A stretch of DNA of 64,000 nt from Ornithinimicrobium pekingense DSM 21552 (GTDB taxonomy: Bacteria; Actinomycetota; Actinomycetes; Actinomycetales; Dermatophilaceae), in contig NZ_ATWJ01000007.1 of NCBI RefSeq assembly GCF_000421185.1, positions 248,001 to 312,000 of the forward strand, in the 5' to 3' direction. Under the pieces are notes generated by a model. It was not told the origin of the DNA and ran no database searches. It was given only the letters and a program-made list of their open reading frames with translations. The translations under genes were made by a program, and so were the position numbers. Shown piece after piece: positions 345-25,200 of this stretch; the stretch's first letter is position 1, and the number at the start of each line of letters is the position of its first letter.

Positions 345-381
345 GGAGCGGCTTCAGCCGTAGTCGCACACTGGCCGCCAA

Positions 382-2588: not shown

Positions 2589-2590
2589 GG

Positions 2591-3565: not shown

Positions 3566-3567
3566 CT

Positions 3568-3888: not shown

Positions 3889-3915
3889 GGTGCTCATCAT
3901 CCTTCCCAGGATTGA

Positions 3916-3943
3916 GAGCCTCCACCAGACCCGGGGCGATTCA
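3916..3943 (-). repeat. Right terminal inverted repeat of the IS3-family element
   Basis: 28 bp, partner of 2561-2588. It is followed by GTT, the second copy of the target duplication, and then by the severed tail of the upstream nuclease gene. Confidence 0.9.
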
Positions 3944-3973
3944 GTTCCAAGTCGCCCTCTGAACACACTGTGA

Positions 3974-5881: not shown

Positions 5882-5884
5882 AAG

Positions 5885-5917
5885 ACGTTGGCGCCTCCCC
5901 GTAGGAGACGCCAACGT
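5885..5917 (+). terminator. Strong hairpin after the membrane-protein gene
   Basis: Perfect 9-bp stem ACGTTGGCG/CGCCAACGT with a further CTCC/GGAG pairing inside, starting four bases after the stop codon. There is no T-run. It is probably a terminator or an mRNA-stabilising hairpin separating the two genes of this cassette. Confidence 0.6.
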
Positions 5918-6015
5918 GATCACTGGACTACATCGGATCTGATCAAGCTGCCATCGGCCTTGGCTACTGCCAGAATCATCGCCGCTGACCACCTCAGGAT
6001 ACCAGGAGGCAGGAC

Positions 6016-7152: not shown

Positions 7153-7346
7153 CTTCGGATGCAGGCGGCCATCTAATCAGTCGCAACGTGCCCGGCCTAG
7201 TCGATCGCGCCTGCACGCCATGCGGATGCCGGCTCCCGCCTTCCGCGGCGACAGGGGAACGACGCGTTCAACAAGGGACGTGGACGCTGGTGTTCATGTG
7301 TGTAATTCGCCCATAGCGTTCATCCGGTCCATCAAGCCTTGTCCCC

Positions 7347-8243
7347 TCATCGAGGATCGTGGCGCTGGAAGGTTCTACCGTCCTCCTCCCATATGACGGA
7401 GCAGCCGTGTGCTCGCATTAGGTCGACCAAGTCTTCGCTGGGACGCACCGGGACCAGAAGGGCCTTGGTCCGGTGGTCCACAAAGCGGGCGTAGTCGAGT
7501 AACTGCCCCAACCCGGCACGGACGTAGCTCCGGGCGCCCGACGCCTTGGCCTCCACGAGCTCCTCGGCGGTTTTGTTGTAGACGTCCGTGAACAGGTAAC
7601 CACCACCAGGGATAGGGACACGATGACGAACCGCTTCTTGTCCCTGCTTGCTTAGCCACTCGGTGTACCGACCGACCAACCTCGCCTCGCGGCGGACCGC
7701 TTCCCTGGGTTCGTCCGGCCGCTGCGCGGCGTACTTGTCGACGTTGTGGGCCTCGACCGGAAGCTCCTCCGGAACCAACGTGTCAGGGCCGGCTGCATCT
7801 ACCGAGGTCTTGACCACTTGACCCAGCGGAGTGAGACGGAACACGAGGACCGATCGCAACTCACCCTCGCGGTCGAGAGCGTCAGCCCGGTAGTACGGGG
7901 GGTCCGCCAGCATGAACTCGCCAAGGTACGTGGTGTCCCGGCCCGCGCTTCGGAACATACGGATGGTCCGTCCGAGCCCGTCCGCGTCCATGATGGACTT
8001 GTTGCCGCCGGTGCGTAGGGTCTGATCACCCACCTGCCCGTCGCCGGTGTAGTGGAAGGTGCCGTCGGAGTGCCAGCCGTCGTACTTGTAGCCGAACGCC
8101 TCACCGGCACTCGGATTGCTGAAGAGGAAGACGCTTTCCGCCTTGACGGATGGCTCCATCCCGCCATAGCGCCCACCACCCCACCGATCATGCAGTTCCG
8201 ACCGCGGCAGCGTCTGGCCCACTTCGATGTCCCAATCAGCCAT
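7347..8243 (-). CDS. SRA/ScoMcrA-like plus PD-(D/E)XK nuclease, putative type IV restriction enzyme
   Basis: 298 residues. The N-terminal 150 residues match my memory of the SRA-like modified-DNA-binding domain of ScoMcrA-type proteins: RWGGGRYGGMEPS, VFLFSNPSAGEAFGYKYDGW, FHYTGDGQVGDQTL. The C-terminal part is a PD-(D/E)XK nuclease: GGGYLFTDVYNKTAEELVEAKAS supplies D and E-x-K, followed by RAGLGQLLDYARF. The second half resembles the C-terminal nuclease of the gene at 1535. Such proteins cleave methylated or phosphorothioated DNA and act alone in the cytoplasm. The start at 8243 gives a natural domain boundary (MADWDIEVGQTL); no clear ribosome site is visible. It is divergent from the Mrr-like gene. 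Confidence 0.75.
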   Translation of the reverse strand: MADWDIEVGQTLPRSELHDRWGGGRYGGMEPSVKAESVFLFSNPSAGEAFGYKYDGWHSDGTFHYTGDGQVGDQTLRTGGNKSIMDADGLGRTIRMFRSAGRDTTYLGEFMLADPPYYRADALDREGELRSVLVFRLTPLGQVVKTSVDAAGPDTLVPEELPVEAHNVDKYAAQRPDEPREAVRREARLVGRYTEWLSKQGQEAVRHRVPIPGGGYLFTDVYNKTAEELVEAKASGARSYVRAGLGQLLDYARFVDHRTKALLVPVRPSEDLVDLMRAHGCSVIWEEDGRTFQRHDPR

Positions 8244-8458
8244 ACTGCGCAGTCAATCACGGTCAGTCTTCGCTCGGCGCACCACCTCGACAGACGGACT
8301 GAAACTTCAGCTGCCGGATACCAATCCGCCCGGCGGCCTTGAAGACCTAACGGCCGACCGACTAGAGGTGGCGTGTCGGGGCCCAGTCGCCGGACGGGGT
8401 GTAGCGTCGCGGAGGCCGAAATGTTGTGTGTGGGCAAGGTGCTCTTGAGGAGGTTGGC

Positions 8459-9535
8459 GTGGAAGCCAGAGCGTGGGTCGTGCGTGCCGGTAGGCACGGC
8501 GAAGACGAAGGATCGAACCTGCAGGAGGGCCGGGCGACGATCGGCTGGCACGAAATCGGTGACCTCACCGAAATGCAGACCCGCGAACAGGTCCGTCGAA
8601 TAGTGGACGAGGTCTTCGCGGGCGATCACCCGAGCCGCCAGGCAATCTTTGCGGGGCAGTTGTGGGCCTTCCGCGACACGATCCGCGCGGGTGACCTGAT
8701 TCTGATGCCGCTAAAGTCCCAACCCGGCCAGATCGCTTTTGGGCGATGCACCGGCGAATACGCCTATGACCGGGAGGCCGACGCCCACCGGCGCCACTTC
8801 CGCCCGGTGCAGTGGCAACCGGACCTCGTGCCGCGCTCCGCGCTGGGTGGAGATCTGCTGGCAATGGTGAATGCGTCCATGACCGTGTTCAGCCCCTCCC
8901 GGAACGACGCCGCCAACCGCCTGCGCGCCGTCGCGGCCACGGGAGTCGACCCGGGACTGTCCGGCGGCTCAACGGCTGGTGCGGGTGCAGGCGGTGACGG
9001 GCTAGACGCGTCCGGCAACGCTGGTGACGCCCAGGTGACCGACCCTGCGCCGGCGCCAACGCTGGATGCCATCAAGGACCAGGTCCGCGCGTTTGTGATG
9101 ACGCGCTTCCGTGAGCACGAGCTCACCCGTCTAGTGGCGGCGATCCTCGAGGCGCTGGGATTCGTGTGTGACGTGTCCCCGGCCGGGCCTGACGGAGGCG
9201 TGGACATCCTCGCCGGGTCGGGACCCCTAGGCTTCGATGCTCCGACCATCGTCGTAGAGGTGAAGTCGGAACCGGGAGCGGTGGGGTCCGCAGTCCTGCG
9301 CACCCTCCACAGCGCGGTCACCCGCTACAACGCCCACCACGGTGTCCTGGTGGCTTGGGGAGGCGTGAGCAAACCCGCCATGGCCGAGTTCTCCCACCTG
9401 CGAACAACCATCCGAGTCTGGGATAGCGAGACACTGTTGGACAAACTGTTCCAGACCTACCCGCGCCTCCCGGAGCACATCCGGGCGCAACTCCCGCTCA
9501 AGCAGGCTTGGGTGCTGGACGACGAGAGTGCGTAG
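8459..9535 (+). CDS. Mrr-like restriction endonuclease
   Basis: About 358 residues from GTG 8459, chosen because GAGGAGG lies at 8447-8453, five bases upstream, and the product then begins MEARAWVVRAGRHGED, matching the N-terminus of Mrr-like restriction proteins. Residues 1-150 are an EVE/PUA-like beta region (TIGWHEIGDL; FRDTIRAGDLILMPL; IAFGRCTGEYAYD). A Gly/Ala-rich linker follows. The Mrr-type catalytic domain spans about residues 215-335: LVAAILEALGFVCDVSPAGPDGGVDILA, then TIVVEVKS (E-V-K). Mrr proteins cut modified DNA. This is the third modification-dependent nuclease candidate in 8 kb, with a different domain order from the other two. Confidence 0.8.
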   Translation: MEARAWVVRAGRHGEDEGSNLQEGRATIGWHEIGDLTEMQTREQVRRIVDEVFAGDHPSRQAIFAGQLWAFRDTIRAGDLILMPLKSQPGQIAFGRCTGEYAYDREADAHRRHFRPVQWQPDLVPRSALGGDLLAMVNASMTVFSPSRNDAANRLRAVAATGVDPGLSGGSTAGAGAGGDGLDASGNAGDAQVTDPAPAPTLDAIKDQVRAFVMTRFREHELTRLVAAILEALGFVCDVSPAGPDGGVDILAGSGPLGFDAPTIVVEVKSEPGAVGSAVLRTLHSAVTRYNAHHGVLVAWGGVSKPAMAEFSHLRTTIRVWDSETLLDKLFQTYPRLPEHIRAQLPLKQAWVLDDESA

Positions 9536-9818
9536 TGCCGGCCTGTCCTGGCTGGCGTCTGCAGAGGTCCCTAGTGCATCGCTCAGCATCTGTAGTGGTG
9601 GCCCCGGCAACAAACAAGAGGCGGATTCCCGAGGCGCACCTTGATCGTGCCGCCTCGTGGCGTGTGGAAGCCGGAACTGGGAGACTGAGGTGTCACCCTC
9701 CTTGTCGTTCCGGCCTCCCGGCACGGCGCCGCCCGCTGGTTTCAACCAGAGGCAAGTTACGACCGCGCTTCCCCGGGAGATTGTTGACTACCATGCCTGA
9801 CGCCGGCATGGTTGCCGG

Positions 9819-10820
9819 ATGGAAGCAGTAGCCACTGCCGCTCTTGCGGTGGCCCAGACGGATGTGAGTGCGGGACGCGGCGCGTACACAGCGGTGCTCG
9901 TCGCAGTCATTTCACTCTTGGGAACGTTACTAGTGGCCGTGATCACAACTGTTGGGGGTGCGCGCCTGCAGCGGCGCAATGCCGCACTCGAGGAGAGTAT
10001 CGCGGCACGGTCCAACGAAGCGGACGAGCGTATCAAGCACCTCGAGCACGAACATGACGTGGCCAGATTCGAACTCGAGGTATCGGAGCGCGCAAAGGCC
10101 GAAGAGGAGAGCCGAGATGCCGTGGCACGCCGCTATAGGGAACCTCTGTTGATGGCTGCCATCGAGTTGTACGGTCGCCTCCGTAACATCGTCGGCGACG
10201 ACTTCTTGGGAGCTTTTCTGGTGCGCGGACGACCTCACGAGAAGCGCTACGCCGAGAATCATACCTTGTACCAGGTGGCTCAGTACTTCTGTTGGGTCGA
10301 GATCGTCCGCCGGGAGGTGCAGTTCCTGGCCCCGGGAAACGAGGCTCAGCAACAGGAACTGGAGGCGCGCCTACAGACGGTCAGCGCAGCATTCAGTTCA
10401 GATGACTTGCGTCGCGTTATGTTGCACCGACTGAAGAATCTGCCCGGCGCATGCGAGGTGCTTATGGATCGGATGACCGCGGACGCGCGGCTCAGAGGAG
10501 AGCCGACCTTTCGACTCTTCCGAGGAGAGCAGCGAGCGCTCGGCGAAGTGCTAACTGTCCCGCTTGGTGCAGCGCAGTCCGCGGAATGGGGATGCATGGG
10601 GTACGCGCAGTTCATGGAAGCTCTCTCACGACCAGCGACCGCGGCTTGGTTCGACAGTTTGCGAGAAGACATCGCCGAGCTTTCGACAAACCTTCATGAT
10701 CGCGGCTCCCGACTCGTCGTGATCCAAGCGGCTCTTGTTGAACTGATCGATGCGCTCGATCCGCAAAACACTCGTTCACCACACAACGACCGGGAGGTGG
10801 TCGCCCTGCCGCAAAGATGA
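9819..10820 (+). CDS. Membrane-anchored coiled-coil hypothetical protein
   Basis: 333 residues. One transmembrane helix near residues 24-46 (YTAVLVAVISLLGTLLVAVI) is followed by a charged heptad-rich coiled coil (about 52-105: RRNAALEESIAARSNEADER, then HLEHEHDVARFELEV) and a globular, mostly helical domain. The layout (short N-terminus, single helix, coiled coil, cytosolic domain) resembles small defence-associated or signalling membrane proteins, but I know no family with this sequence. No ribosome site is evident before ATG 9819. It stands alone in its orientation block between restriction genes and an IS relic. Confidence 0.6.
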   Translation: MEAVATAALAVAQTDVSAGRGAYTAVLVAVISLLGTLLVAVITTVGGARLQRRNAALEESIAARSNEADERIKHLEHEHDVARFELEVSERAKAEEESRDAVARRYREPLLMAAIELYGRLRNIVGDDFLGAFLVRGRPHEKRYAENHTLYQVAQYFCWVEIVRREVQFLAPGNEAQQQELEARLQTVSAAFSSDDLRRVMLHRLKNLPGACEVLMDRMTADARLRGEPTFRLFRGEQRALGEVLTVPLGAAQSAEWGCMGYAQFMEALSRPATAAWFDSLREDIAELSTNLHDRGSRLVVIQAALVELIDALDPQNTRSPHNDREVVALPQR

Positions 10821-11239
10821 ATGCTCCCACCGGTTGCGCTGTGTCGTCGGGTAGGTCCTCAAGCGATGCAACAGGTCCCGACGCAGACACCGGGCCCAGC
10901 ACCAGCGACGACGCCGGGACGGCGCGCCAAATCCGACACGTGGCCGTTGACTCTGCGGCTCGCGCCCGCCATAAGCTGATTCGGCCATCCCCCTGGCCGG
11001 TGTCGGCTCCGGTCATTCTTCTGCTGCAGACTGCGCTGCACGGAAGCAACAAGGCTGGAGTGCGGACTACCACGACCCCCGCATTCGCCGACGCTCTCTT
11101 CATCCACGGGCACAGCCGGCGATGAACCTGCCAAACCACGAACTTCAAGTGGACTCTCTTAGCAGGTAGCCAGGACGCATCCCGCTGCGCGCCGCGGCAC
11201 GCTTGGTTCTCTCTCGGCTTTCAACGGCCAGATAGAAGT
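10821..11239 (+). other. Intergenic, no gene seen
   Basis: About 420 bases with scattered open frames on both strands, none with motif or ribosome site. It leads into a possible transposase-helper relic. Confidence 0.35.
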
Positions 11240-11400
11240 CCCGGTTTTGGTCAGGTGAAAGTGCTCACCCTCTGTGGGGTGATCACTGGGTGGCAGTTCA
11301 CCTCCTCGCCGTTCGCGGGCGCGTGCGGTACGACTGGCCGTTGGTGACGACGTGGTGGCGTGGTGCAGCAGCCGGTCGAGCATGGCCACCGCGGTGGTGT
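11240..11400 (-). pseudogene. Possible IstB (IS21-type helper ATPase) C-terminal relic
   Basis: On the minus strand one frame reads LPEHTTAVAMLDRLLHHA, close to the AxxLDRLLHH signature near the C-terminus of IstB proteins. The natural continuation, VVTNGQSYRTR, appears only in a neighbouring frame. I read this as a short frameshifted remnant of an IS21-type helper gene; the rest of the element is absent. Confidence 0.4.
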
Positions 11401-11510
11401 GCTCGGGCAGGAACCGTCCTCGATTTCCCTGTCGTGAGGTTCGGCATTCCTCCCCACGGGTGGGCTAGACCCAGCCCACGAAAGGGCGGTCTCGTACGCT
11501 CATAACGCCT

Positions 11511-12977
11511 CTAGGGGTTCTCCACCGGCAGACGGTCGAGGAAGTCGGCGTAGGACACGACGGGTATACCTAGGGCCGCCGCCTGCCTCACCTTGGCGGT
11601 GGCGCGCAGGGTATCGGGGGCTATGAGCAAAGAGATTGCGGAGCTGACCCCGCCGACCGGGTGCACGCCGGCCGCTCGTGCGAAAGCCTGCCACTCGGCA
11701 CGGCTGCGGCCGGGGCCAGCTCCGGTGAAGCAGACCTTGTCACCCGGGTTCAACACCGGTAGATCGCTCGGGGGTGCTGTCTCGGCCGCAAGCGTGTGTG
11801 CCTCCCAGTCCTCGATGAACGCACTGTCTAGTTTCACGTCCCGGGCTCGTTCCAGGTAGTCGTCAAGGTGAATACGAATTGGTGCGGTTTCCTGCCACAT
11901 CTCGGTCCATCCTGTGACCCGTTGCTCGACTGGAAAGCCCGTAGCCGGCCACGGCGCAACGGTGGCGAGGACCTGATCCTCCACCCACAGCGCAGCGCCT
12001 CGGTGAGGGACAGTGATGATCTGCTCCAGACGCCCGCCGAACTGCTCGAGTGTTACCAATCGGGCATCATTACCGCTGTTGGTGATCCCCACTTTGAAGA
12101 CCCCCCAGTGCGGGAACCGGAACAGGTAGACCCGGTGCTCGCTTCTCGGGTCGGCTGCTCCGTCACACTTGTAGCACGGAACGAGGCCCCGGTTCAGCTG
12201 CTTCATGGAGACGCGACGCGGCGTCTGGCACCGGCTGCATCGGGCGTCCTGGATCGTTTCGGCCCCTGAAAGGGGTTGCTCGATCGTCATCTGGTGCGAA
12301 CTGAAGCCCACCGCGACGTCCGAAGCGCACGGTCCGCGGTTCCGGGCGTTGCAGGAGGGGCACATGCACCACCTACCAGCAAGTTCCGAAGCCATTCGCC
12401 CAGGTAGTTCGACTGATTCCCATCCGCACAACCGGCATCGGACCACCACCGGAGACATCCCGTCGTTGTGCTCGACGCTGTCCCAGACAAGATCGTGGTG
12501 AAGGAGGTCCACTGTCGCCCGCGTCCGCTCCGTTGGCCACCACCATTGTCGCAAGACGGCCTGCAGGTCTTCGTGCGTGGCAATGAGTTCCTGCTCCTCC
12601 GGTGCAAGACCGGAGGGGCGTGACAGGACTTCTCCGAGAACGTAGGCAATCTGCGGTTTGTGGATCCTCCTGTTTTCCTCACCCCACCACGACCAGAAGC
12701 AGACCCGGCACACGGCGACCTCGGGGGAATGGATCTTCTCGACGACGTACTCCAACTTGTAGGGAACCTGGGCCCCACAAGTCAGACACCTTGTTCGCCG
12801 GCGCGCGTTGCGATCGCGGAACGGCTCTAGCGGCTCAAGACCAGCACTCTGGTAGATCTTGTCGATGCACGGCACGCAATATGCCTGCACGGTGCGCGTC
12901 GTGAACGCTGCGGCGTTCTGGCACCCATCCCCGGAGCAGACTTGAGCAACCATGCCATCAACCTCCACGTTCGCCAC
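11511..12977 (-). CDS. Zinc-ribbon / GIY-YIG-like nuclease / BRCT protein
   Basis: 488 residues. Residues 1-275 carry repeated cysteine pairs: C14/C19, C34/C37, C64/C67, C90/C93, C181/C184, a C204/C206/C209 cluster, C247/C250, C268/C271. These suggest four tandem zinc-binding ribbons. Residues 282-370 look like a GIY-YIG-type nuclease of the T5orf172 kind: HRVYLFRFPHWGVFKVGIT (Y and the KVG motif), R306, and E333 in VEDQVLA. Residues 412-484 form a BRCT domain (GDKVCFTGAGPGRSRAEWQ, then IPVVSYADFLDRL). BRCT usually binds DNA ends or phosphopeptides. I know no named protein with this domain set. It precedes Lsr2 and shares nuclease class with the ParC fusion downstream. Cytosolic, no signal peptide. 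Confidence 0.75.
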   Translation of the reverse strand: MANVEVDGMVAQVCSGDGCQNAAAFTTRTVQAYCVPCIDKIYQSAGLEPLEPFRDRNARRRTRCLTCGAQVPYKLEYVVEKIHSPEVAVCRVCFWSWWGEENRRIHKPQIAYVLGEVLSRPSGLAPEEQELIATHEDLQAVLRQWWWPTERTRATVDLLHHDLVWDSVEHNDGMSPVVVRCRLCGWESVELPGRMASELAGRWCMCPSCNARNRGPCASDVAVGFSSHQMTIEQPLSGAETIQDARCSRCQTPRRVSMKQLNRGLVPCYKCDGAADPRSEHRVYLFRFPHWGVFKVGITNSGNDARLVTLEQFGGRLEQIITVPHRGAALWVEDQVLATVAPWPATGFPVEQRVTGWTEMWQETAPIRIHLDDYLERARDVKLDSAFIEDWEAHTLAAETAPPSDLPVLNPGDKVCFTGAGPGRSRAEWQAFARAAGVHPVGGVSSAISLLIAPDTLRATAKVRQAAALGIPVVSYADFLDRLPVENP

Positions 12978-13129
12978 AGCTCGGCCCTGACCCTATCCGA
13001 ACCGGCCGGCGACGGATGCACACCCTGCTCTGTACCCCGAAGACCAAGGCGTGCAGGCCCAACAGCCCTGCATCCAATGGCAGGGAGGCTGCCGTTGGCA
13101 TGATGGTGCGACGTCAAAGGAGGCAAATG

Positions 13130-13630
13130 ATGAGCAAGAAGGACACCGTCCGTGGGTTCGCCGTGCTGCAGGAAGATCCTGGCGGACGCCTGGCGGCATG
13201 GCACGTAGGCTATGGACCCCGCATCGCGTCCAACGTCAACGCGATCGTTCTACCAAAGGGCAGCCCCAACATAGACAACTTGTGTCGGGATCAGTTCGTC
13301 CTCTCGGCCGACGGTCAGGCGCAGGGGCCGAGCGCGAAAGAGGTTTGCGAAAGTTTCATAGAAGGCTCACATCGCCTCGGAGAGTATAAGGACATCCCGC
13401 ACCCTCGGATCCCCAGCCCGCCACAATCGAACATCTCCTCACACGTCGCCCTCGCAGCGGCGAACGATCTGGTGGCCAGTTGGAACTACTGGATAAAAAC
13501 TGTCCGCCGAGTCACTTCAGCCAAGGACCCGCACCCTCTCCCAGTTATACCGACCGAGGTCTGTCGGATATTTCGTACCGACCCCGAGGCCATCAAGGTC
13601 GTCGGAGCCTGGAATTTTCCCAAGAATTGA
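13130..13630 (+). CDS. Hypothetical protein
   Basis: 166 residues from ATG 13130 (an ATG directly before it at 13127 is equally in frame); AAAGGAGG at 13117-13124 is a near-perfect ribosome site. The product starts MSKKDTVRGFAVLQED and contains no membrane segment or recognisable motif. A central part is rich in Pro and Ser (HPRIPSPPQSNISSHVALAA). It is divergent from the zinc-ribbon/GIY-YIG gene, about 150 bases start to start, and lies upstream of lsr2 on the same strand. Function unknown. Confidence 0.6.
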   Translation: MSKKDTVRGFAVLQEDPGGRLAAWHVGYGPRIASNVNAIVLPKGSPNIDNLCRDQFVLSADGQAQGPSAKEVCESFIEGSHRLGEYKDIPHPRIPSPPQSNISSHVALAAANDLVASWNYWIKTVRRVTSAKDPHPLPVIPTEVCRIFRTDPEAIKVVGAWNFPKN

Positions 13631-13885
13631 GCCCGATGTAGACACCCTCGTCCCGTTTCTCAAGCTTGATTCCTCGCGCGCCTTGTTGAGTGATCGCCAA
13701 CATCTCGGTCACGTCCCGCAGTGGAAGAGGGCGATGGCCTGTTTGTGCGTCTCAACTTCCTCCAACACTGCGCGTGGGTCCCGCCACACGCTCCAGCTAC
13801 ACGCGCCTCAGACTCGACTTGCGTCCGGCAGCCGCTCAGGGCGTAAGATGAAACGTCAATCCACCCCGTCCCCGTAGGAGCCATT

Positions 13886-14224
13886 GTGGCGCAGAAGGTG
13901 CAGACGATCCTTGTCTCGGATCTCACCGGCAAGGAGCTCGGCGAGGATGGCCAGACCCTCAAGTTTGGTTTCCTCGGCGCTGACTACGAGATTGACCTCT
14001 CGCAGCAGGAGGCGGACGAGTTCGCCAAGGTCATGCAGAAGTACACCGATGCCGCACGGCGTGTCGGTGGCCGTCGCCAGCCCGGTGGCAACCGTGGCAG
14101 TGCCCCGACTGATCGTGAGCAACTGCGGAAGATGCGTGAGTGGGCGAATAAGAACGGCTACAAGGTGTCGACCCGTGGCCGCATCCCTCAAGAGATTCGG
14201 GACGCGTATCACGCGGCTAGCTGA
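13886..14224 (+). CDS. lsr2: Lsr2 nucleoid-associated xenogeneic silencer
   Basis: 112 residues, normal Lsr2 length. The N-terminal dimerisation domain is clear (MAQKVQTILVSDLTGKEL; TLKFGFLGADYEIDLSQQEA), followed by a basic linker. The C-terminal AT-binding domain has REQLRKMREWANKNGYKVST with the RGR minor-groove hook (TRGRIP) and IRDAYHAA. GTG start with TAGGAG six bases upstream. Lsr2 coats AT-rich foreign DNA and represses it; a copy inside an accessory region may silence its own cargo or interfere with the host copy. Whether a chromosomal paralogue exists cannot be seen here. Confidence 0.93.
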   Translation: MAQKVQTILVSDLTGKELGEDGQTLKFGFLGADYEIDLSQQEADEFAKVMQKYTDAARRVGGRRQPGGNRGSAPTDREQLRKMREWANKNGYKVSTRGRIPQEIRDAYHAAS

Positions 14225-14457
14225 CTTCGAGGACTCCGAGCCCCCGATGGCACGTGACTGCCACGGGTTGGTTCTAAAAGTGACGGAGCCGAGGCACTCA
14301 ATCGATGTATCCAGCTCGCGTCGCTCGTCGGCGTTCCCTGTACTCGGGTGAAGCCCAAGCTATAGGCCCTGATGCCCCGACGCGTCTACAAGCGCGGGGG
14401 ACCGCACAATGCCTGTAGCCAACGTCGGGTATTAGCCAGGAAAGCCGGTTCGACTTC

Positions 14458-17400
14458 TTACTCGGTGGCGGTCCAGACAAGGGCGCGTGAGGGAGGGCTG
14501 CTCGGTGGACCATTGCGACCCGCCGTCACGTTGATCACTCTTGGGCCGCCTGCAACCTCACGACGACGTGCCCGTTCGATGTGGTCTGCCTCCGCCTGAT
14601 CTAGATCAACCACTGTCCATAACATCATCTGACGTATAGGCTTTACAGGAATGCACTCGATCTGAACCACATCATCTAGGGACGTTCCCCAACTGCGGCC
14701 CAGAGTCTTTTCATGGCGATAAGGACGTCGCCGAAAGTCGGAAGTTCGCCCGATGTATATCTCTGTCACCCCTGACGTATGCCGTAATATTCGATAAATC
14801 CCAGCCACGCGCGGTATCTTGGCCCAGTCGGCACGACCTCGGACAATCAACGGACGTCCAGCGCGCAGGGCACTTCTTGGCGCCAAGAGAATAGGGCTAC
14901 TCTGTCTAACCAACTGCTCCGGACCCGGTACCCAAATGGCAGCAGAGCGGTCCAGTCGCACGTTCTCTAGCGTGTCCTCCATAGTAAATGCTGCGAGGCG
15001 CAGATTTCTAGCGAGCGCAATTGTGATCTGCTTGTTGGGCATGTCCAGCGTGTATAAAGCACCCGCCTGGCCGAAGGCGCCGGATTCACCCAGAGGACCC
15101 CGACGCCCGAGTGTGACGTGATGAGGATGAGCGGCCAGGATGGCCGACCACATGTCCGCGACAGGATCTGAAGAGCGCGAAGCGGCTGCACCACCCCCCT
15201 CGAAGGCTGGGTTGCTGCGTTGTGGTGCACCCGTTCTCGCCGATTGTCGGCCGAAGACCTCCCGTGGAGTGGGGCCCGTGGATCGGACCATGGGATTGTC
15301 TTCCGCTGAGGTCACCTGGCTGGCGCCAGGCATGTCTCCGCGGTCGGCACCAGTATCTCGCAAGGGGATAGAGGTCGGCTGGAAACTAGGCGGAGAGACA
15401 AGGGCACCGGCCTGGGAGTGGGTTCCCTGGGTTGTCCCTAGCGCGGCTACACGAGTCTGGATGGCCACACCGGAGCCGTCGCGCTTGTCGTTCGTTTCCG
15501 GGAGGTCGACGGGCATCCCATCTGTGGAGGCGGCCCTCGGTGGTGCAGCTTCGGCCCACGCGAGCAGGAGGGCATTTTCGTCGCGCAGGAACCGGTGACA
15601 GCGGACGCCGCCGGTGGCTCGGCCCTTGGAGGGGTAGACCCACATGTCCGTCACCTTGACCGAGCCCGCCTCCACGCCGAGCTGGGCGCCGGCGGAGCCC
15701 GCCACAGTGACTACCACGTTCTGAGCGGCGGGGTCGACGGCGCTGAAGCCAACGACCCAGGCCCCGGGGGACAGCATGACGCCGGCCAATCCGCCCCCGG
15801 AGAGTTCCTGGAACCGCACGAGGGAAGCGGAGTAGTGCAGCAGCTGGGCGTCGGAGGTGATGAACACCAGCGACTCCTCGCCGGTGGCCAGCTCGACGGC
15901 ACCGACGACCCGGTCGCCCTCCTTGAGGCTGATGACCTCGAAGGCGTCCCGGTTGCCGGGGTAGTCGGGCTTAACCCGCTTGACGACGCCCTGCCAGGTC
16001 CCCAGCGCCAGCCCGGGCCCCCCGCCGTCCAACGACGCGAGCGCCAGGACGCTCTCCCCGGGAGGCAGGTCGACAAAGGCCGACAGCGGCGCACCGCCCG
16101 ACAGGGAGGGTGCCCCGGCGGTGGGCGGCATGCTGGGCAGCTCGACGACGGACAGCTTGACCACACGGCCGGCCGACGTCACCAGCCCCACCTGTCCCTG
16201 TGCGGTCGTCCGCACCCGGGAGGTGATGACGTCGTGCTTGGCCCGGCGGCCGCCCGTCTCGAGCGGCTCCGCACCGGTGGTGCGGGCCAGCAGGCCGGTC
16301 GAGGACAGCAGCACCCAGCACGGGTCGTCGGGCACCTCCAGCGCGGCGCCCTTGGCGCCCGGGGCGGCGGCGCCCCTGGCGCCCGGGGCGGCGGCGGACG
16401 TCATACCCGTGTTGCCGTCGGACTCGAGCAGCACCGTGCGGCGCGGGGTGCCGTGCTCCTTGGCCACCTTGGCGAGCTCGTCGCTGACCACCGTGAGCAG
16501 CAGCTGGGGGTCGTCGAGCATCGCCTGGAGCCGTGCGATCTCGCGGAGCAGCTCGTCGCGCTCGGACTCCAGCTCGATGCGGGAGAACTTCGTCAGCTGG
16601 CGCAGCTGCAGCTCGAGGATGTAGTCGGCCTGCAGCTGGGACAGGCCGAAGACCTGCATCAGCCGCTGGCGGGCCGTCGCGGTGTCGTCGGAGGAGCGGA
16701 TGAGCTGGATGACCTCGTCGATGTCGAGGATCGCCACGAGCAGCCCCTCGACCAGGTGCAGCCGGTCCTGGCGCTTGCGCAGCCGGTGCTCGGTGCGGCG
16801 GCGCACCACGGAGGTGCGGAAGTCGACGTAGACCTGCAGCAGCTCGCGCAGGCCCAGCGTGCGCGGCTGCCCGTCGACCAGCGCGACGTTGTTGATGCCG
16901 AAGGACTCCTCCATCGGCGTGAGCCGGTAGAGCTGCTCGAGCACGGCCTCGGGGTTGAAGCCGGTCTTGATCTCGATGACCAGGTGCAGGCCCTTGGTGC
17001 GGTCGGTCAGGTCGATGATGTCGGAGATGCCCTGCAGCTTCTTAGACTGCACGAGCTGCTTGACCTTCTCGATGACCTTCTCCGGGCCGACGAGGTAGGG
17101 CAGGTCGGTGACGACGATGCCCTTCTTGCGCGGGGTGACGTTCTCGATCCGCGCCGTCGCCCGGGTGCGGAAGGACCCGCGCCCGGTCTGGTAGGCCTCG
17201 CGGATGCCGTCGAGCCCGATGATTCGGCCGCCGAGCGGCAGGTCGGGGGCGGGGACGAAGCGCATCAGCGCCTCGAGGTCGGCCTCCGGGTGGGCGATGA
17301 GGTGGCGGGCGGCGCCGATGACCTCGACCAGGTTGTGCGGCGGCATGTTGGTCGCCATGCCGACCGCGATGCCGGAGGCGCCGTTGACCAGCAGGTTGGG

Positions 17401-17952
17401 GAAGGCGGCGGGCAGCACCTCGGGCTGGGTCAGCTGGTCGTCGTAGTTGGGGACGAAGTCGACGGTGTCCTCGTCCAGGCTGGCGGTCATCAGCAGCGCC
17501 GCGGGAGCCATCCGGGCCTCGGTGTAGCGGCTGGCGGCCGGGCCGTCGTCCAGGGAGCCGAAGTTGCCGTGCCCGTCGACCAGCGGCAGCCGCATCGTGA
17601 AGGGCTGCGCCATCCGGACCATCGCGTCGTAGATCGCCGTGTCGCCGTGCGGGTGGTACTTACCCATGACCTCGCCGACGACGCGGGAGCACTTCACGTG
17701 CCCCTTGTCCGGGCGCAGGCCGAGCTCGTGCATCGAGTAGAGGATGCGGCGCTGGACCGGCTTGAGGCCGTCGCGGGCGTCGGGCAGCGCGCGGGAGTAG
17801 ATGACCGAGTAGGCGTACTCGAGGAAGGCCCCCTCCATTTCGTCACATATATCTGACGCAATCCATCGGTCCTCCACACTGCCTTGTGCGTCGGCAGACG
17901 CCGCGGCAAGCTCGCGCAGCGGGAAGGCCGCGGGCACCCCATGCTCACTCAT
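14458..17952 (-). CDS. Topoisomerase IV/gyrase subunit A homologue with C-terminal GIY-YIG nuclease domain
   Basis: 1164 residues; ordinary ParC proteins are about 800-830. Residues 35-500 are the breakage-reunion core: [34 protein letters not shown], and SRYTEARM with catalytic Tyr143. Beta-pinwheel repeats continue to about residue 825, where normal ParC would end (KRDGSG). A roughly 225-residue linker follows, then a GIY-YIG domain: GIYRI at 1051, [12 protein letters not shown] at 1065-1076, H1080, E1121 and VINVTAGRN near 1140 hold the key Tyr, Arg, Glu and Asn. Codon use in the first ~35 codons and the last ~320 looks unlike the very GC-rich core, suggesting a mosaic gene. No parE partner is in the window. 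The topoisomerase assignment is firm; the role of the nuclease tail is unknown. Confidence 0.88.
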
Positions 17953-18115
17953 TGCTCGGAACCCTCCTTCGGTGCCCCCAGGGCAAGCATGCTCACATGG
18001 AGCGGGGAAGGGAGACTACCGCAGAATGGCGTCCTCGCCACCAGTTTGGTTGACTGCCAGGCGGCACTGCGACATCGGCCTGCAGAGGCAGTACTGGACG
18101 CTGAGCTGTGCCGCG

Positions 18116-20050
18116 TTAAGGCGTTCTCGAGCGGGACCTCTTCCGGTTACAGGGCGGGCAGCCGACGTGTTGACGACGGATTCGCCCATTTATGGGCGCC
18201 TGCCAAACGGCGCCACAGTTCGAGCACAGCCACCAAGCCTTGGCGTTGCGTGCATTGGATACGTCCGCGGGAGTGAAAGGGCCGTTGAGGGCGGGATGCC
18301 ACTCGGCCGCGATGGCGGGGGACTTCTCGGCAAGAGAACCCCCTGGCCGCGGGCGCGGTGGGGTGATGGACGGCTCGCGCGGGGAGCGCCTTCCCACGAC
18401 CAGTTCGCTCCAAATGACCTGGGCCGCTGCGGTTTCCCTGGCCACGCCACCAGCGCGGTACAAGTCGAACTTCCGTCGCATCTCGGGCAGCGCGCCCCAC
18501 GCTGCGCGGGAGGCCGCTCCGCCGGAGTTTTCGGGAATGGCGACGATGAGGCTGATGAGCTTCGCGGTCACTGTACAGGCGGTGATGAAGACGTCCGGTC
18601 GTCGAGCATCGACCGCCACATCGGAGTCGCGGCAGGGCAGAGGGGTCTCACGGGCGCGACACACCAGCCACCCCGCTCCAGTAAGGTCGCGCAGTTTGCG
18701 GTCGTCCCGGTCGTTCGTTCTTCGGTGCCAGTGCGCACCGTCGTACTCCACGATGATCCCCAGCTCTGGGCTGGCCATATCAACGCTCCAGGTTTGTTCT
18801 CGACCGTTCACCGTAGTGTCACCGGTTAGTGACGCTGGGAAGGTGTGGCGCAACTCAAGGAGCAACTGAATCTCAGGACGAGAGCGCCGCCATCCAGCGG
18901 CGCAGGTTGGGCATCCAGTGCCGCCGCGGACGCGCGACGCGATGGTTGCCGTCCAGGTGTGTCCACGTTCGCATAGCCACGCGTATTTACGCTGAACACC
19001 CGTTGTCACCTGAGCCGGGGTGACGTCACCGTTCAAGTCGAAGTGCCACTCGGCGGCGACCGCTGGTGCGAGGGTCGCTAGGTCATTCCCATAGCCCACC
19101 TTCTGCCCTGTGCAATAAGGGCACGCGCGCCCTAATTGACACCGATTTGCAATGCGACTGCGGTAGGAGTGGCCGCGCGGGCAGGACCACCAGGCATACG
19201 CGCTGGAGGCGGGCATAACGTCATCGGGCGTTTGCGATCCGTTCTTGTCGGCGTCCCACTCGGCGGCGATGTCAGCTCGAAGCGTTCTCAATGACGTTTC
19301 GGGGGTGGCGAGACGGCCCGAGCAGTAGGGACAGCCAGCCCCGCCCTTGCCCACGCGTCCGGCTGGCGGGACGGACCACTCGTGCCCCCGATGGCACACC
19401 CACCAAGCACGTTTGTTGGACTGTGGGCGAACGTGGAGAGGGGTTATTTGGCCGTTTCTCGTTGCATGCCACTCTGCTGCAATGCCGGGATGAAGGTCGG
19501 CCAGCGAACCCCCTGGTTCAGGAGTGGCACGGCGCGAAGACTGAGCTTTGGCGGCGCACCTAGGGCAGCCGGATCCGAGCACGCTCCTACTCCTGATGCT
19601 TGCCTGCCACTGGTGACCATCGCCGCACCGCCACCACGCCTTGCGTTCGGAGCCCGCCACGACTGTGGGCGAACCAGCGTTGGCCTCGAGGTCCCATTGC
19701 TGGGCCAAGTCGGGGTGTAGCACGTCGAGGCGGTTAGTGAGGGACGGGCGCTTGCCAGCGCAGTACGGGCATCCGGACGTCGGTGATGTCGAGCGATATA
19801 CCGAGTTCGCCATCGCCTCCCATAAGTGATCCGGGCCGCGCGAACACTTCCACCGAAGGCGCTTGTTAGATCCCACTGGAACCGCGTGTGGCGGCAGTTC
19901 ATTGGTCGGGTCATACAGGTCGGCAAGTCGCTGCACGTCTGACACACGAGTGCCACCGCGCCGCGGCCTCGGTTCTCGTTTACGAATCGGCTGCTGCTGC
20001 AGCGCTGCGACATCATTCCTACTCATCCGCGCCATCTTCGGGCACAGCAC
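18116..20050 (-). CDS. Zinc-ribbon repeat protein with embedded Vsr/DUF559-like nuclease
   Basis: 644 residues. Five tandem repeats of 65-70 residues fill residues 40-380, each with W-x-C, G-H-x-W and a gCPyC pair (WKCSRGPDHLWEAM..GCPYC; WWRCGDGHQWQA..GCPRC; WWVCHRGHEWSV..GCPYC; WWSCPRGHSYRS..ACPYC; WLCERGHTWTA..GCPTC), matching the probable zinc-ribbon DUF4379. A nuclease of the Vsr/DUF559 fold follows: SVDMASPELGIIVEYDGAHWHR, then DDRKLRDLTGAGWLVCRARE (near residues 415-470). A sixth ribbon closes the protein (WWLCSNCGAVWQA..GCPPC). The start is uncertain; ATG 20026 is an alternative. It lies upstream of the ParC fusion on the same strand. Probably a DNA-targeting nuclease; substrate unknown. 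Confidence 0.75.
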   Translation of the reverse strand: MLCPKMARMSRNDVAALQQQPIRKREPRPRRGGTRVSDVQRLADLYDPTNELPPHAVPVGSNKRLRWKCSRGPDHLWEAMANSVYRSTSPTSGCPYCAGKRPSLTNRLDVLHPDLAQQWDLEANAGSPTVVAGSERKAWWRCGDGHQWQASIRSRSVLGSGCPRCAAKAQSSRRATPEPGGSLADLHPGIAAEWHATRNGQITPLHVRPQSNKRAWWVCHRGHEWSVPPAGRVGKGGAGCPYCSGRLATPETSLRTLRADIAAEWDADKNGSQTPDDVMPASSAYAWWSCPRGHSYRSRIANRCQLGRACPYCTGQKVGYGNDLATLAPAVAAEWHFDLNGDVTPAQVTTGVQRKYAWLCERGHTWTATIASRVRGGTGCPTCAAGWRRSRPEIQLLLELRHTFPASLTGDTTVNGREQTWSVDMASPELGIIVEYDGAHWHRRTNDRDDRKLRDLTGAGWLVCRARETPLPCRDSDVAVDARRPDVFITACTVTAKLISLIVAIPENSGGAASRAAWGALPEMRRKFDLYRAGGVARETAAAQVIWSELVVGRRSPREPSITPPRPRPGGSLAEKSPAIAAEWHPALNGPFTPADVSNARNAKAWWLCSNCGAVWQAPINGRIRRQHVGCPPCNRKRSRSRTP

Positions 20051-20412
20051 CGACAGACGCGTCTCCGGTCGCGTGGAAGTGTCGTTGCACCTTGATTCCT
20101 TCTGTCTGCACAGGCCGCCTCGGGCAGCGCAGGTTCGGCATACATGGGACGCTCTCTTCTCGCGGCTGCCCCATCAGCCCGGGGCGCATTCATCCCGATG
20201 ACGGCTTCGTCCGTCGAGTCCAACTCTCTTGCCGCTGCGCGCCTGTTTGTCAACGAGGACGGGCCTCGAACAGCCAGCGCGGACGTCGACCTGCGAATCG
20301 CCTCGGCTCGTTTCGCAACGCATGACGACGGCTGACAGTTCGCGTCGCTTGAGCTGCCTCGCGTCGGTACTCGCAGCAGTTGCGTGGCCTTCGAACGGTC
20401 CTACTGAGCGTT
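20051..20412 (-). other. Intergenic, no gene seen
   Basis: 362 bases between the zinc-ribbon nuclease gene and the toxin gene. Open frames on both strands lack motifs and ribosome sites. The promoter of the nuclease gene should lie here. Confidence 0.4.
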
Positions 20413-20826
20413 TCAGGCGAAAAACTTGACTCTCTGCGTGGGGTCGTGGGGGACATGGTTCACGCGGGCGTAGACGGGACGTCCTGTAGTCGAGATTTGC
20501 GCCGTGACTAGGTCAATAGCGGACAGATAAGCGGCAGTCAAGAAGCTCACCTGGCGGGGCCCCGAGAACGGCGGGTCACGGTGAGCTAGCCAGGACATGC
20601 AACTGGCGCGAATCTCCCGCTGCTCTTCCGCAACGCTCCATTGGTTGACGTCTTTCGTGATCAGGACGTCGACCTCTCCTCGGGCGGAAAGTTCGCGGAT
20701 CATCTTTGTGTCTACGGCGCCGGATAAGCCAGCGTCGTTACAGTGTTCAAACTCATGCTGCGGGAACATGAACTTCATCGCTGCACTGAAAGCGGGGGAG
20801 GTATTCTCATCGACGAAGAATTTCAT
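20413..20826 (-). CDS. PIN-like (DUF5615/VapC45-type) toxin
   Basis: 137 residues. It opens MKFFVDENTSPAFSAAMKF, the VDEN signature of DUF5615/Mut7-C-like PIN-fold RNases, and continues with GEVDVLITKDVNQW, where the TKD is the second acidic motif. The gene overlaps the upstream DUF433 gene by four bases (ATGA), the usual arrangement for antitoxin followed by toxin. Toxins of this class are predicted ribonucleases held in check by the cognate DUF433 protein. The C-terminal 40 residues are poorly conserved in my memory of the family. Confidence 0.75.
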   Translation of the reverse strand: MKFFVDENTSPAFSAAMKFMFPQHEFEHCNDAGLSGAVDTKMIRELSARGEVDVLITKDVNQWSVAEEQREIRASCMSWLAHRDPPFSGPRQVSFLTAAYLSAIDLVTAQISTTGRPVYARVNHVPHDPTQRVKFFA

Positions 20827-21353
20827 GATGCTGCCCCTACCCGCATGGTGAGCTCGACGGCGCCTCGCGCCGCTTCATCGCTAACGCCTGGGTAGAAGTG
20901 GTGCAGCAGGGCAAAGTTCGTTTCTTCGTTGCCGATGAAGCCGGAAATGGTGTCATACGCTATCCGCGTGCCCTCAATGGTTGGCCAGCCTCCCATTCGC
21001 TTGAGTTCCACCTGGATTCCGCGGGTGGGGCGCTGGAATGGCACCACCGGCTTGCCATTTCTAGTCACAAAGGATTCAAACACGTCCTGGAGTGAGAAGT
21101 TCATGATCTGGGACCCTGGCCGCTTCGTCAGATCGATGGCAGCCTCGTCGCCAGCGTTCAGCAGCGCTATCAAGTGTCCATCGGTCACAAATCGATACTC
21201 TGATGGATGATCGTTGAAATCCATGTCGCGTAGCGACTCTTGGCTCTTGCGAATCCGCTGGATCGAGACGCTACCGATGGAGCGCAGCTTGACGAACGTT
21301 CGTGCGGCGACTAGATCCCTATATGAGTACGTGATTGGTCGCTCAGCCGACAC
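20823..21353 (-). CDS. DUF433 antitoxin with MerR-like N-terminal part
   Basis: 176 residues from GTG 21353. Residues 8-45 (ITYSYRDLVAARTFVKLRSI, then SIQRIRKSQESLRDM) match the second half of a MerR-like DNA-binding domain. Residues 115-160 are the DUF433 module (GGWPTIEGTRIAYDTISGFI), which binds the PIN-like toxin. Family members usually have about 30 more residues holding the first recognition helix. Here an in-frame stop lies seven codons upstream, so the N-terminus is shortened or shifted. Autoregulation may therefore be impaired, while toxin binding may be intact. Confidence 0.7.
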   Translation of the reverse strand: MSAERPITYSYRDLVAARTFVKLRSIGSVSIQRIRKSQESLRDMDFNDHPSEYRFVTDGHLIALLNAGDEAAIDLTKRPGSQIMNFSLQDVFESFVTRNGKPVVPFQRPTRGIQVELKRMGGWPTIEGTRIAYDTISGFIGNEETNFALLHHFYPGVSDEAARGAVELTMRVGAAS

Positions 21354-22214
21354 CTCAGGTACGAGGAGCCCCTATGCGCCACCGGTGGAGTTGGCTTATG
21401 GAGGCACCGGTCAGGACCGACGCGAGTGGTACCGGGTACACCACACCACCTCACCTCCCTGTGTGGACACACGCGTGATCCCACAGGCAAGACCGCCACC
21501 CCCTGCAGCATCTATGCGGCGTTTCGTGCGTACATCCTTCGCACCCACATCGGCGTACCTGCCAGGTGGTGATACGACTACTTTCTCTTGACGTTACGCT
21601 GACTCCTCAATCAGCGTAGAAGCAGCTCTGCACGACGCGCTTTGTCCCGCCTGGTGCAAGTGGGGGCAAATGCGTAGGCTCGAAGGTTTGGATCCCAACG
21701 GGCTCGCGAGAATGTGCTGGCGTCCTCAAGGTCGCTTATCGGCCGCGCGCCACCGCGAAAGTATCCACCGCACCCGGGGGGGGGGGGGGGGGGGGGATAA
21801 CTTGTGGCTTGTGCCCCCAACGAGTCTTATGTGAAACGCGCGCGTGAGCAGGAGCGCGCCCGCCGACTGTGGACGGATGCCCCACTCCCGCCGCCGTCAT
21901 GCGCCGTCCGCGTTCAGGTTCACGAGGCACAGGTTGGCCCCGTGCACCAATCTTGCGCACAGCGACCACGGCTACCAGGCTTCTGGCACCTGAGCCGCCG
22001 CACCTCAACCTGGGGTGGTTGGGGGGCGTCGAGGTCCTTTCCCGCTTTGGCATCGACTACGACCGGCTCAACTCTGCCACGCCAGCGAGCCCGTCGCGGG
22101 GCGCTCAGGGGCTAGTGCAGTTCCATGGTCCTCTCGGGGTTCTGCCCCGGCACTGACTAGGGTGAGTGCCGATGAGAATGTCGGAGTGGAGTCACCTGTG
22201 GCAGATCCGGGCAC
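21354..22214 (+). other. Long intergenic region with G-tract, no convincing gene
   Basis: 861 bases. Short frames exist on both strands around the G-run (for example LLAPEPPHLNLGWLGGVEVL on plus near 22,000 and DLEDASTFSRARWDPNLRAY on minus near 21,700). These look somewhat protein-like but have no complete start-to-stop structure; they may be remnants split at the homopolymer. TAGGGT at 22158-22163 is a plausible -10 hexamer for the large downstream gene. Confidence 0.4.
21776..21796 (+). repeat. 21-base G homopolymer
   Basis: An uninterrupted run of 21 G on the plus strand (C on minus), about 420 bases upstream of the giant NTPase gene. Such runs are slippage-prone and could form a G-quadruplex. 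They are also a classic sequencing-error site, so the exact length should not be trusted. Confidence 0.8.
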
Positions 22215-25200
22215 ATGAGTGAACTGAAGTACGCCCACGCGGGTTACAGCTACCAGGATCTTATGGGTGCCGTCGCGGCTGTGGACGTGATCCTCGGCGA
22301 CGCGGTCCGGGTCTACTGCGACACCCTCCTCGGTGGTGTTCATGACAGGTTCGACGATCTCACTGTTGAGTGGGCCGACGGCCGCTGGACTCGACGCCAA
22401 ATCAAGTACCAAGCCCAGCCCACGCCGCTCGACATCGACACGTTCGTGCGCGGCACACGCAAGCTGTTGCTGAGCGAGGTCTTCAGGAGCATGCGTTCGG
22501 ACGCGGCGCTGCACTCGCAACGGGCCGGACAGAGTTCCTATACGGTCTACCTGCGCGACGCTGATGCTATTGACGGGGTGCTCACTCGAGTACTGCTGCC
22601 GGCCGACCCGGATCCTGGGCCGTCAATTGTCGGGACCTCTACGGCCCGATACCGTTTTGACGCCAAAGCGTTGTGGCAGGGCGTTCACCGGGAGGGAGCG
22701 GGCAGGAGAAGGGCGGGCGATGCATGGGAGTTCCTGCGGCAGACCGGCGGTGAGGGCGACGGAAGTTGTGTGGGACAGGCTGATGACGCCGAACGACTGA
22801 CGTTCACCCAAGACGAGCTCCAGGAGCTGTGCGCCCGCTTGGTCGTTGAGGTCAATGCTCCCGCCATGTCCAGCGATTTCTCCGCTCCTGGAGCCCTAGA
22901 GCAACTCTTGCTCGCACGCCTGAGGGAGGAAGTGGGCGTCGGGCAATACCCCAACGAGAACCGGCGGCCAGAGGATGTCGCTGCCGCGCTCGTGGCGGTA
23001 GCTGGGAGGGCGCGACACACCCACGAGCCGCTGGTCCGTCCCGCGCTTCTTCGGGCCATCGCCCTACGCACGGACTTTGGCAGCGTCAGCCGCAGGAGTC
23101 CAGTCGTTCCAGACCAGCAGGTCAGTCGACTCGCGGCCGTGCAAAATCTGCGAACTGCCGCCGCCAGTGCCGCCGCGGACGGCGGCTTTCTGGTGGCGGA
23201 GGCGCCGCCTGGGCAGGGCAAGTCCTGGGTCGCAGATCAGCTGCGCTCGTCTTTGACCGCGGATGATTGGACTGTCGCTGAACACTTCTGCTTTCTCAAC
23301 GACTCCGAGGAGGAGCGAGACGACAGGGTGGCCTCTGAGCGCGTGTTTGGCTCGTTGGCGGAGCGGATTGCCGCCGAATATCCCGCGATCGCGATGGCAC
23401 AGCGGCCCATCTTCAGCGCCGACGAGCAGACGCTCATGCGGCTCGTGGAGAAGGTAGTGGGCGTCAGCAACGGGCCGGTCGCCCTAATTATCGACGGGCT
23501 TGACCACGTCACTCGGGTGCGAGCAAGTAGACCCGGAGCGGTGTCACCGTCCGCAGCCATGGCATCCCAGATCGCGGCGCTGGAGCCGATAAAGGGCTGC
23601 GTGATCATCGTCCTGAGTCAGCCCGGAGACCATCTTCAACCGCTCCGTGAGGCTGGTGCCACGACCGTGCAGGTTCCGCCAATGGGCCGCGCTGAGATCG
23701 CGACCTTGTTGGGACGCCTTGGCCTGAACGCAGACGAGCTTGCTGATGATCCTGAGGACGTGGTCGATGCCGTCTTTGGGCGCTCGGCCGGCAATCCCCT
23801 CTATGCGACCTACCTGTGTCGCGAGCTCCAGCGCGAAGACCGGGCTGATCTCCTCCTGACGTCCGGGTCAGCAGGTGAGGTTCTCTCCTCGATCCCGGCC
23901 TACGACGGCGACCTGGAGCACTATTACCGGCACCTGGCAGCGCTGTTGGACACTGCGGGCCAGGCTGCGGCCGACACCCTCACCGTGGTGGACTTCCCGC
24001 TCACCGTCGAGGAGCTGAAGGCGATCCAGCCAGGTGAGGGGCACCGTGTCGCAGCGGCGGTGCGCGTGTTGGAACCCGTCTTGAGGCAGTCGCCACGAGG
24101 TCTGGCGATCTACCACGAGTCGTTCGGGAGGTATCTGCGTCGAGAGTTAGAGGCCGAGCCCGAAGCGCTGGCAGCGCGTCTTGGAGCTGTCATCACTTGG
24201 CTTAGGGACCTAGGTCTTTTCCGTGACACGCGTGCATTCAGATCCCTCCTGCCGCTGCTGGCCACTGCGGGACGCAACCAGGAGGTGCTGGCCCTTGTCG
24301 ATCGGTCCTTCGCGGCCGTCGCCGTGGGGGCAGGGTTTCCCCCATCGGCCATCGCGGCCAATCTCGCCGTCGGGGTGCGCTGCGCCCAGCGCGAAGGAGA
24401 CTGGGCCGCCGTAGCACGGTGCTTGGAGCTCATGCGCGGCGTCGAGACGTACGAACAGGAGCGGCTCAGCGATCTAGACACCCGCTTCACCGAAGTGCGG
24501 ATCGCTCTATTCGGCGGTGAGCAAGTCGCGGAACGGATGCTGCAGGAAGGGCTGGTGACGATGCCACCCGAAGCAGGCGTCCTGCTTTGCGCTGAACTCG
24601 ATCGGGAAGGCTTCGTAGCGCCGTGGCGCCCTTATCTGGAGGCGTGGCGCGACGAGCACAGCGGCAATGGTCAAAGAGGCGAGGATCCTGAGGAGCATGT
24701 GGTCGAGGCGGTGCTGCGCGGGCAGTTCCGGCTGCTGCAGGTCGAAGGCGCACCGGTCCAGATGACCCAGAGCCGGTCTGAAACTGGAACCCACATGTCA
24801 GCCGAGCAAACGGCGGCTGCCACATCCGAGAGCATCAGGCCGTCCGGAGTCGGGCAGTCGCCGGGTGACGAGTTTGACGGGCACCCTGACATCGAACAGG
24901 GCAAGGGAGAAGAACCTCTGCCCGAGGACCCTCACGAGCGACTGCTGACTATCGCACGTGGCTGGTGCGACCGAACAGGGACCCTGTCCTCTCACCGCAT
25001 CGTCGTAAGCACCATCGCAGACACACTGGGCCTTGAGACAGGCGCGCAAATGGCTGCTCGCGTGCGTGATTCCGGGGCCTATTGCCTCGCCGTGGCTGAA
25101 GAGATGGTTCAAAATGGCGTCGACGACCTGGCGCCCCATGGTTCAGTCGGCCGGTGGGCCACCCAAGCGCAGGCAGCCGGTGTTCCGGTGGGACAGGTGC

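Follow-up and report, generated by a model that had tools for sequence, protein, structure and literature searches.

In the actinomycete Ornithinimicrobium pekingense DSM 21552, a window of 64,000 nucleotides (contig NZ_ATWJ01000007.1, positions 248,001 to 312,000; positions given below are those of this whole stretch) carries a gene, here termed parC-giy-yig (14458..17952, minus strand), which is one open frame and fuses a ParC-like topoisomerase IV A subunit to a likely GIY-YIG domain. Since the housekeeping ParC is still present in the genome, the fused gene is evidently an accessory copy, and, lying in an integrative element, it is mobile in this genome. As far as trees and codon composition show, the ParC core of this gene and that of a related fusion in a congener each come from the local parC pool, and tail, linker and N-terminus are of other composition. 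Type IIA topoisomerases serve as targets of drugs and tend to be regarded as self-contained enzymes; if our interpretation is true, mobile DNA would bring a nuclease to DNA by borrowing machinery essential to the host. What appeared to be a one-off fusion can be checked through the congener, which has the same tail on a different core.

The frame starts with ATG and runs through 1164 codons without an internal stop, encoding 1164 residues; a GGAGGG stretch labelled by eye as ribosome-binding-like (17962..17967, minus strand) lies 9 bases upstream of the start. All parts of the protein are, accordingly, encoded on the minus strand. They comprise an N-terminal extension (residues 1-36; 17845..17952; G+C content at third codon positions, GC3, 0.639) unlike the N-terminus of the resident ParC, the ParC core (residues 37-829; 15466..17844; GC3 0.955), a linker (residues 830-928; 15169..15465; GC3 0.616), a tail subdomain whose fold is without assignment (residues 929-1045; 14818..15168), and the GIY-YIG domain together with the C-terminus (residues 1046-1164; 14461..14817). 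Coordinates and residues had been given correctly in a preliminary description of this DNA.

The same description held the ParC core to be complete, and this is borne out by family models—PF00521 (DNA_topoisoIV) matches residues 54-493 with 508.1 bits (cut-off 31) and NCBIfam NF004044 matches residues 37-794 with 865.9 bits against a cut-off of 654—as well as by alignment along the whole core with the resident ParC (88.7% amino acid identity). Two equivalog models for ParC, TIGR01061 and TIGR01062, remain below their cut-offs for the fused protein and likewise for the resident ParC. The catalytic tyrosine claimed at position 143 is found (codon 17524..17526, minus strand): from its homology we take Tyr143 to be the active-site residue, and it follows Arg142 within RYTEAR (residues 142-147), with Arg-Tyr and RYTEAR kept in 21 of 21 aligned rows. 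The pinwheel, by contrast, had been called normal, which does not hold in full; the window copy reads QEL where all 20 other aligned rows have QGR, presumably a GyrA-box-like pinwheel motif, and ten residues further on it has methionine where 19 of these 20 rows have lysine and one (G001) has arginine. The pinwheel family PF03989 scores 25.1 bits on the window protein, under its cut-off of 27. QGR is kept in the fused copy of the congener.

The housekeeping ParC of the window's genome (822 amino acids, L004) is encoded on another contig, and a GyrA is present as well. Homology between the resident and the fused protein runs to DKRDGSGV, from where the resident ParC stops 11 residues later and the fused protein continues for 335 residues, in agreement with the approximately 340 residues beyond the usual ParC end reported earlier; the first 36 residues of the fused protein also differ from those of the resident ParC. 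Compared with ordinary bacterial ParC (PF00521; NF004044), the window copy is therefore alike in its catalytic part, C-terminal region and R-Y active site, and differs in its 335 additional residues, which include a likely nuclease, in being a second copy, in its location in a mobile element and in the changed pinwheel motif. An accessory ParE was not found, each of three genomes having two GyrB/ParE-type genes. Among 186 genomes of the family, one or two ParC matches at E ≤ 1e-150 are usual, and more than two are present in three of them (G000, G007 and G170). In G170, five ParC matches at E 1e-150 or better were counted, for which a split or an extra copy is possible. Open-frame length was tried as a marker of fused ParC and rejected, because frames run on upstream in GC-rich DNA.

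The tail is present in two of 31 genomes of the genus and in three of 186 genomes of the family, the window's own included. In the congener G007, a fused gene of 1138 codons with matching architecture encodes a protein 67% identical over window residues 20-1162; it coexists with separate ParC and GyrA of its own in an assembly consisting of a single contig, and it adjoins NERD-kinase and UvrD-type genes, i.e., a defence-type cluster. A frameshift that had split a normal ParC from a GIY-YIG gene, the weak point named in the preliminary description, is contradicted by this matching fusion and by the resident ParC, which ends in a clean stop; that the frame is open at homologous positions in both species argues against chance as well as assembly error. 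A DUF4357 protein that weakly matches GIY-YIG is encoded about 4 kb from the G007 fused gene (L008:18404-19423).

The search for further combinations of ParC and GIY-YIG and for their neighbourhoods, as had been proposed, thus yielded a second fusion in G007 and, in a genome of another genus (G167), the tail on a LigA-like part. In the latter protein (P0002), the tail follows a segment that resembles residues 380-605 of LigA chain 3sgi_A, which we take to be the OB, zinc-finger and HhH parts, the zinc finger being matched also by PF03119. Against the LigA model, P0002 reaches 62.2 bits, the cut-off being 369, and the C-terminal part alone matches; no LigA adenylation domain was matched in P0002. 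It is thus like the NAD-dependent DNA ligase LigA in the C-terminal region, and unlike it in having a GIY-YIG tail and no matched adenylation domain. The identity to the LigA of three genomes is approximately 28-35%. Between the LigA-like piece and the tail, a BRCT-like stretch was seen by eye, which Pfam did not confirm. A fragment of a type IIG-like restriction gene ends 18 bases before the G167 fusion, on its upstream side. Just upstream of the fusion, two pieces match one type IIG-like restriction model (L015:5556-8431), and an opposite-strand open reading frame (ORF) that appears transposase-like by eye lies between them.

Tyr, Arg, His, Glu and Asn of a GIY-YIG domain had been reported in place, and this claim stands as far as the residues are concerned: Y1053, Y1066, R1076, H1080, E1121 and N1141 are invariant and in order in 3/3 tails, the Glu and Asn positions having been placed by eye and the catalytic roles of all six being presumed. 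It does not stand at the level of the Pfam cut-off, which counts against the assignment of the tail: with PF01541, the whole window protein scores 15.1 bits and the tail alone 17.9, where 22.6 are called for, and the match spans only the first half of the window GIY-YIG domain. When scanned alone (limit E 10), all three tails match PF01541 (window tail E 0.0038, best 1.6e-4). Profile-profile comparison of the tail with three other GIY-YIG domains, two from the window's own genome and one from G853, resulted in a probability of 81.9% (E 1.1e-5, 32 columns), while two control comparisons gave 0.1% and 0.3%. I-TevI (1mk0) is the top PDB match of the tail, at an E of only 0.044, and single-sequence structure prediction of the tail, with a mean predicted local distance difference test score of 33, is too low to be used for the fold. 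In relation to the GIY-YIG (URI) superfamily (I-TevI, UvrC, Cho), the GIY, YIG, R, H, E and N positions and the first-half profile are alike; unlike its members, the window tail remains below the Pfam cut-off, is preceded by an unclassified subdomain of 117 residues (929-1045) and is fused to a type IIA topoisomerase. This subdomain is found in 3/3 tails and has no Pfam match; matches to Pizza beta-propellers were set aside, their targets being repetitive designed proteins.

The window and G007 tails are 51% identical, with saturated synonymous sites. Their identity at first, second and third codon positions amounts to 0.56, 0.67 and 0.35, respectively; second positions being the most alike, the tail is, by this measure, under long-lasting protein-level constraint. 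The linker of 99 residues is unconserved and cannot be aligned with that of G007, 256 of 300 shuffles scoring equally high.

Core and tail have separate histories. The ParC core tree comprises 21 rows, i.e., 18 of 20 fetched parC stretches, the two fused cores and the window's resident copy; G022 and G010 failed the motif filter and were dropped from trees and counts. Each fused core falls inside the clade of its own host; well-supported branches require two core origins, and the two fused cores come together in 0% of 200 bootstrap trees. In G007, the fused core and the host's own parC are 99.1% identical in protein and 97.0% in DNA over 2359 aligned columns, with nonsynonymous (dN) and synonymous (dS) divergence of 0.0059 and 0.094; the codons differ by 54 synonymous and 7 replacing changes. 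The window core is 90.0% identical in protein to ParC of G011; with a dN of 0.069 and a dS of 0.388 against its host, compared with 0.059 and 0.417 between two host species, it diverges from host and G011 about as much as host species do from one another.

Codon composition changes at the same boundaries. In the order N-terminal extension, core, linker and tail, GC3 is 0.64/0.96/0.62/0.57 in the window gene and 0.58/0.91/0.60/0.58 in G007, where the respective host ParC has 0.96 and 0.91, so that both fused genes jump at both core ends. GC3 of the N-terminal extension is below that of the host N-terminus, marginally in G007 (P 0.049) and with P 0.0004 in the window. Low GC3 at the ParC end is not telling alone, as the last 11 codons of the host ParC have a GC3 of 7/11. 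The motif SDI-x-DEM precedes the core in both fused N-termini and in none of 19 resident ParCs. Vertical descent or transfer of the whole fused gene without exchange was rejected, the cores being ungrouped while the tails are related. From the ungrouped cores and the GC3 jumps at the core ends, it follows that the core was at least twice either exchanged with the local parC or captured from it; overwriting of the core of an old fused ParC by exchange with the resident parC is favoured over two independent captures.

What such a protein might do can be proposed tentatively, at a confidence somewhat short of even: an accessory A subunit of topoisomerase IV, bearing a nuclease as its C-terminal tail, may form a hybrid enzyme acting probably against phages or rival elements. 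Homologous exchange with the resident parC would repeatedly replace the core of an old fused gene, and the resulting chimera would join the resident ParE to make up a hybrid topoisomerase IV. As no second ParE was found, the chimera would have to pair with the resident ParE, which could be why a local core is favoured. The hybrid enzyme would then locate DNA that is crossed, supercoiled or newly replicated, where the nuclease tethered to it would nick or cut, most likely to the detriment of phages or rival elements. Use against invaders is suggested by defence-type neighbours at all three loci—Mrr/PDC-S02, PDC-S48 and a NACHT-type protein in the window, NERD-kinase and UvrD-type genes in G007, and the type IIG-like pieces in G167. 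The LigA-like, DNA-binding partner in G167 fits a tail that serves as a nuclease module and is directed to its target by proteins of replication. A wider formulation, which we consider doubtful, would have a mobile GIY-YIG cassette placed behind replication proteins (ParC, a LigA remnant), its ParC part being renewed from the resident gene after transfer, so that a host-matched topoisomerase-nuclease would enter the resident topoisomerase IV as a weapon or alarm against invading DNA.

Several observations weigh against the hybrid-enzyme proposal or the history on which it draws. The N-terminal extension of the window protein is not significantly similar either to the N-terminus of its own host (score reached by 52 of 300 shuffles) or to the extension in G007 (by 57 of 300); that of G007 can be aligned with the N-terminus of its host (score reached by 0 of 300 shuffles), with 27 of 72 bases alike in an ungapped DNA comparison. 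Independent captures and gene conversion are not told apart with certainty. At the 61 codons that differ between the G007 copies, sister species side with the fused copy in 21, with the host copy in 26 and with neither in 5, and are evenly split in 9; on the basis of this split, the G007 core could also stem from a sister strain. With approximately 28-35% identity to LigA only, the LigA-like relative does not appear to track its host. At columns that are conserved elsewhere, the window core carries 10 private changes, compared with 1-5 in five other rows; taken together with the lost pinwheel motif, this suggests that the topoisomerase function of the window copy may be altered or decaying. 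The G007 fused copy differs from its own host ParC in 7 residues and retains the motif. Finally, 0 families among the PADLOC models matched P0001 and P0002, and P0003 matches PADLOC PDC-S14 only weakly (E 0.0012 and 0.0018).

A local core on an old common tail fits an aimed nuclease and a decoy alike, and does not choose between them. In an integrated decoy, the ParC part would be bait resembling the resident ParC, and the nuclease would be freed or activated once topoisomerase IV comes under attack from a phage protein or a rival element. No attacker of ParC came to light, no search having been aimed at one. The core following the local parC in two lineages, as bait would, the defence-type neighbours and the unconserved linker of approximately 100 residues all agree with this; we nonetheless consider it unlikely in view of the LigA-like relative, which does not track the host, and of the full ParC with its R-Y active site, given that bait could be smaller. 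The fused gene might also serve the element itself, the private topoisomerase with a nickase tail aiding its replication, resolution or transfer, for which the Prim-Pol/AAA_25 protein and the recombinase encoded in the element would be suitable company. Yet when the surroundings of the three genes were compared (100 kb for the window, 80 kb for G007 and 70 kb for G167; ORFs of at least 80 amino acids), nothing beyond the fused gene and its antisense frames was common to the three loci besides transposase-type and low-identity matches (about 24-36%), which argues against a common element function; with none of four scanned G007 neighbours matching a replication-initiation family, this is quite unlikely.

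That the tail stands behind parts of two different replication proteins, and that the cores resemble the local parC, could also be expected of a selfish homing-type gene, in which an in-frame GIY-YIG at the 3' end of essential genes cuts empty alleles and co-converts the core. The fusions are, however, second copies elsewhere, the resident parC being tail-free in both genomes, so that an insertion at the native locus is not seen; the tail occurs in three of 186 family genomes and never at the resident parC, and the missing fusion at the resident parC of tail-holding genomes makes a homing parasite very unlikely. The full-length core with its R-Y motif and the few replacing changes in G007 (54 synonymous vs. 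7) would suit a spare ParC tolerant to a drug or toxin, to which the tail is incidental. We judge this highly improbable, as one 10-residue stretch is identical to the host's, the tail is constrained, and a spare ParC would need no conserved nuclease. An assembly error, a frameshift or a dead gene, towards which the slightly raised number of private changes in the window core might point, is scarcely credible: the tail is constrained, and a second species, assembled as a single contig, has a matching fusion, both frames being open.

Beyond the family, the tail was matched in 4 of 394 genomes drawn from the class, 4 of 396 from the order and 2 of 396 from the phylum, with up to seven candidates scored per genome; the own genome is included in these counts, and the remainder (three, three and one) are weak partial matches only. 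G007 and G167 do not appear among them, presumably as they were not drawn, and these draws are accordingly no proof of absence. By eye, one partial match (L021) consists of an exonuclease-like part and a GIY-YIG, and another (L020) is a short GIY-YIG protein that matches the window tail at E 2.9e-4. Scans of genome contigs, viral contigs (with two peptide patterns), plasmids and phages revealed no relatives of the tail.

In literature searches, mostly below full-text depth, no paper describing the fusion of GIY-YIG to a type II topoisomerase was found. GIY-YIG fusions have been surveyed (PMC1564403), with no occurrence of topoisomerase or gyrase in the main text of that article. A table in PMC10952713 lists PD-T4-3 and PD-lambda-1 as GIY-YIG-bearing anti-phage systems, which resemble the present case in having a GIY-YIG nuclease in a defence context and differ from it in that no topoisomerase part is named in that table and that P0001 is without a PADLOC match. 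The component families are known; as far as the searches go, their combination and the host-following core are undescribed.

The element harbouring the fused gene is 37 kb long and occupies positions 1..34984 of the window, its left end (-2058) being outside. The site is empty in six of six congeners examined, which place both ends identically (window -2059 and 34985), and a 10-bp direct repeat, TCTGGATCAA, flanks the element (left copy -2068..-2059; right copy 34985..34994, plus strand). Near its right end, a tyrosine recombinase is encoded (Phage_integrase, 33521..34618, plus strand; PF00589, 77.3 bits). Approximately 160 bases upstream of the fused gene and co-directional with it lies a gene (18116..20050, minus strand) with six DUF4379 stretches and weak DUF559 and MTES_1575 nuclease-type matches. 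A protein of 488 amino acids (11511..12977, minus strand) has a C-terminal LigA-type BRCT (phrog_3869, E 6.6e-8) and matches the PADLOC candidate PDC-S48; its middle part appears GIY-YIG-like by eye, which Pfam did not confirm. Further genes encode an Mrr-type restriction protein (8426-9535, plus strand; PADLOC candidate PDC-S02, 413.7 bits) and a NACHT/STAND-type protein of 2240 amino acids (22215-28937, plus strand), possibly a large defence NTPase, with a weak Avs1b match (E 5.2e-4). A PIN/DUF433 pair and Lsr2, a protein typical of actinobacteria, are encoded in the element alongside the Prim-Pol/AAA_25 protein. Between its repeats (-2068..-2059 and 34985..34994), the element splits a reading frame with the pattern VEEIWIN-EPSKVF, seen by eye, which we presume to be that of a TadA/CpaF-type secretion ATPase.

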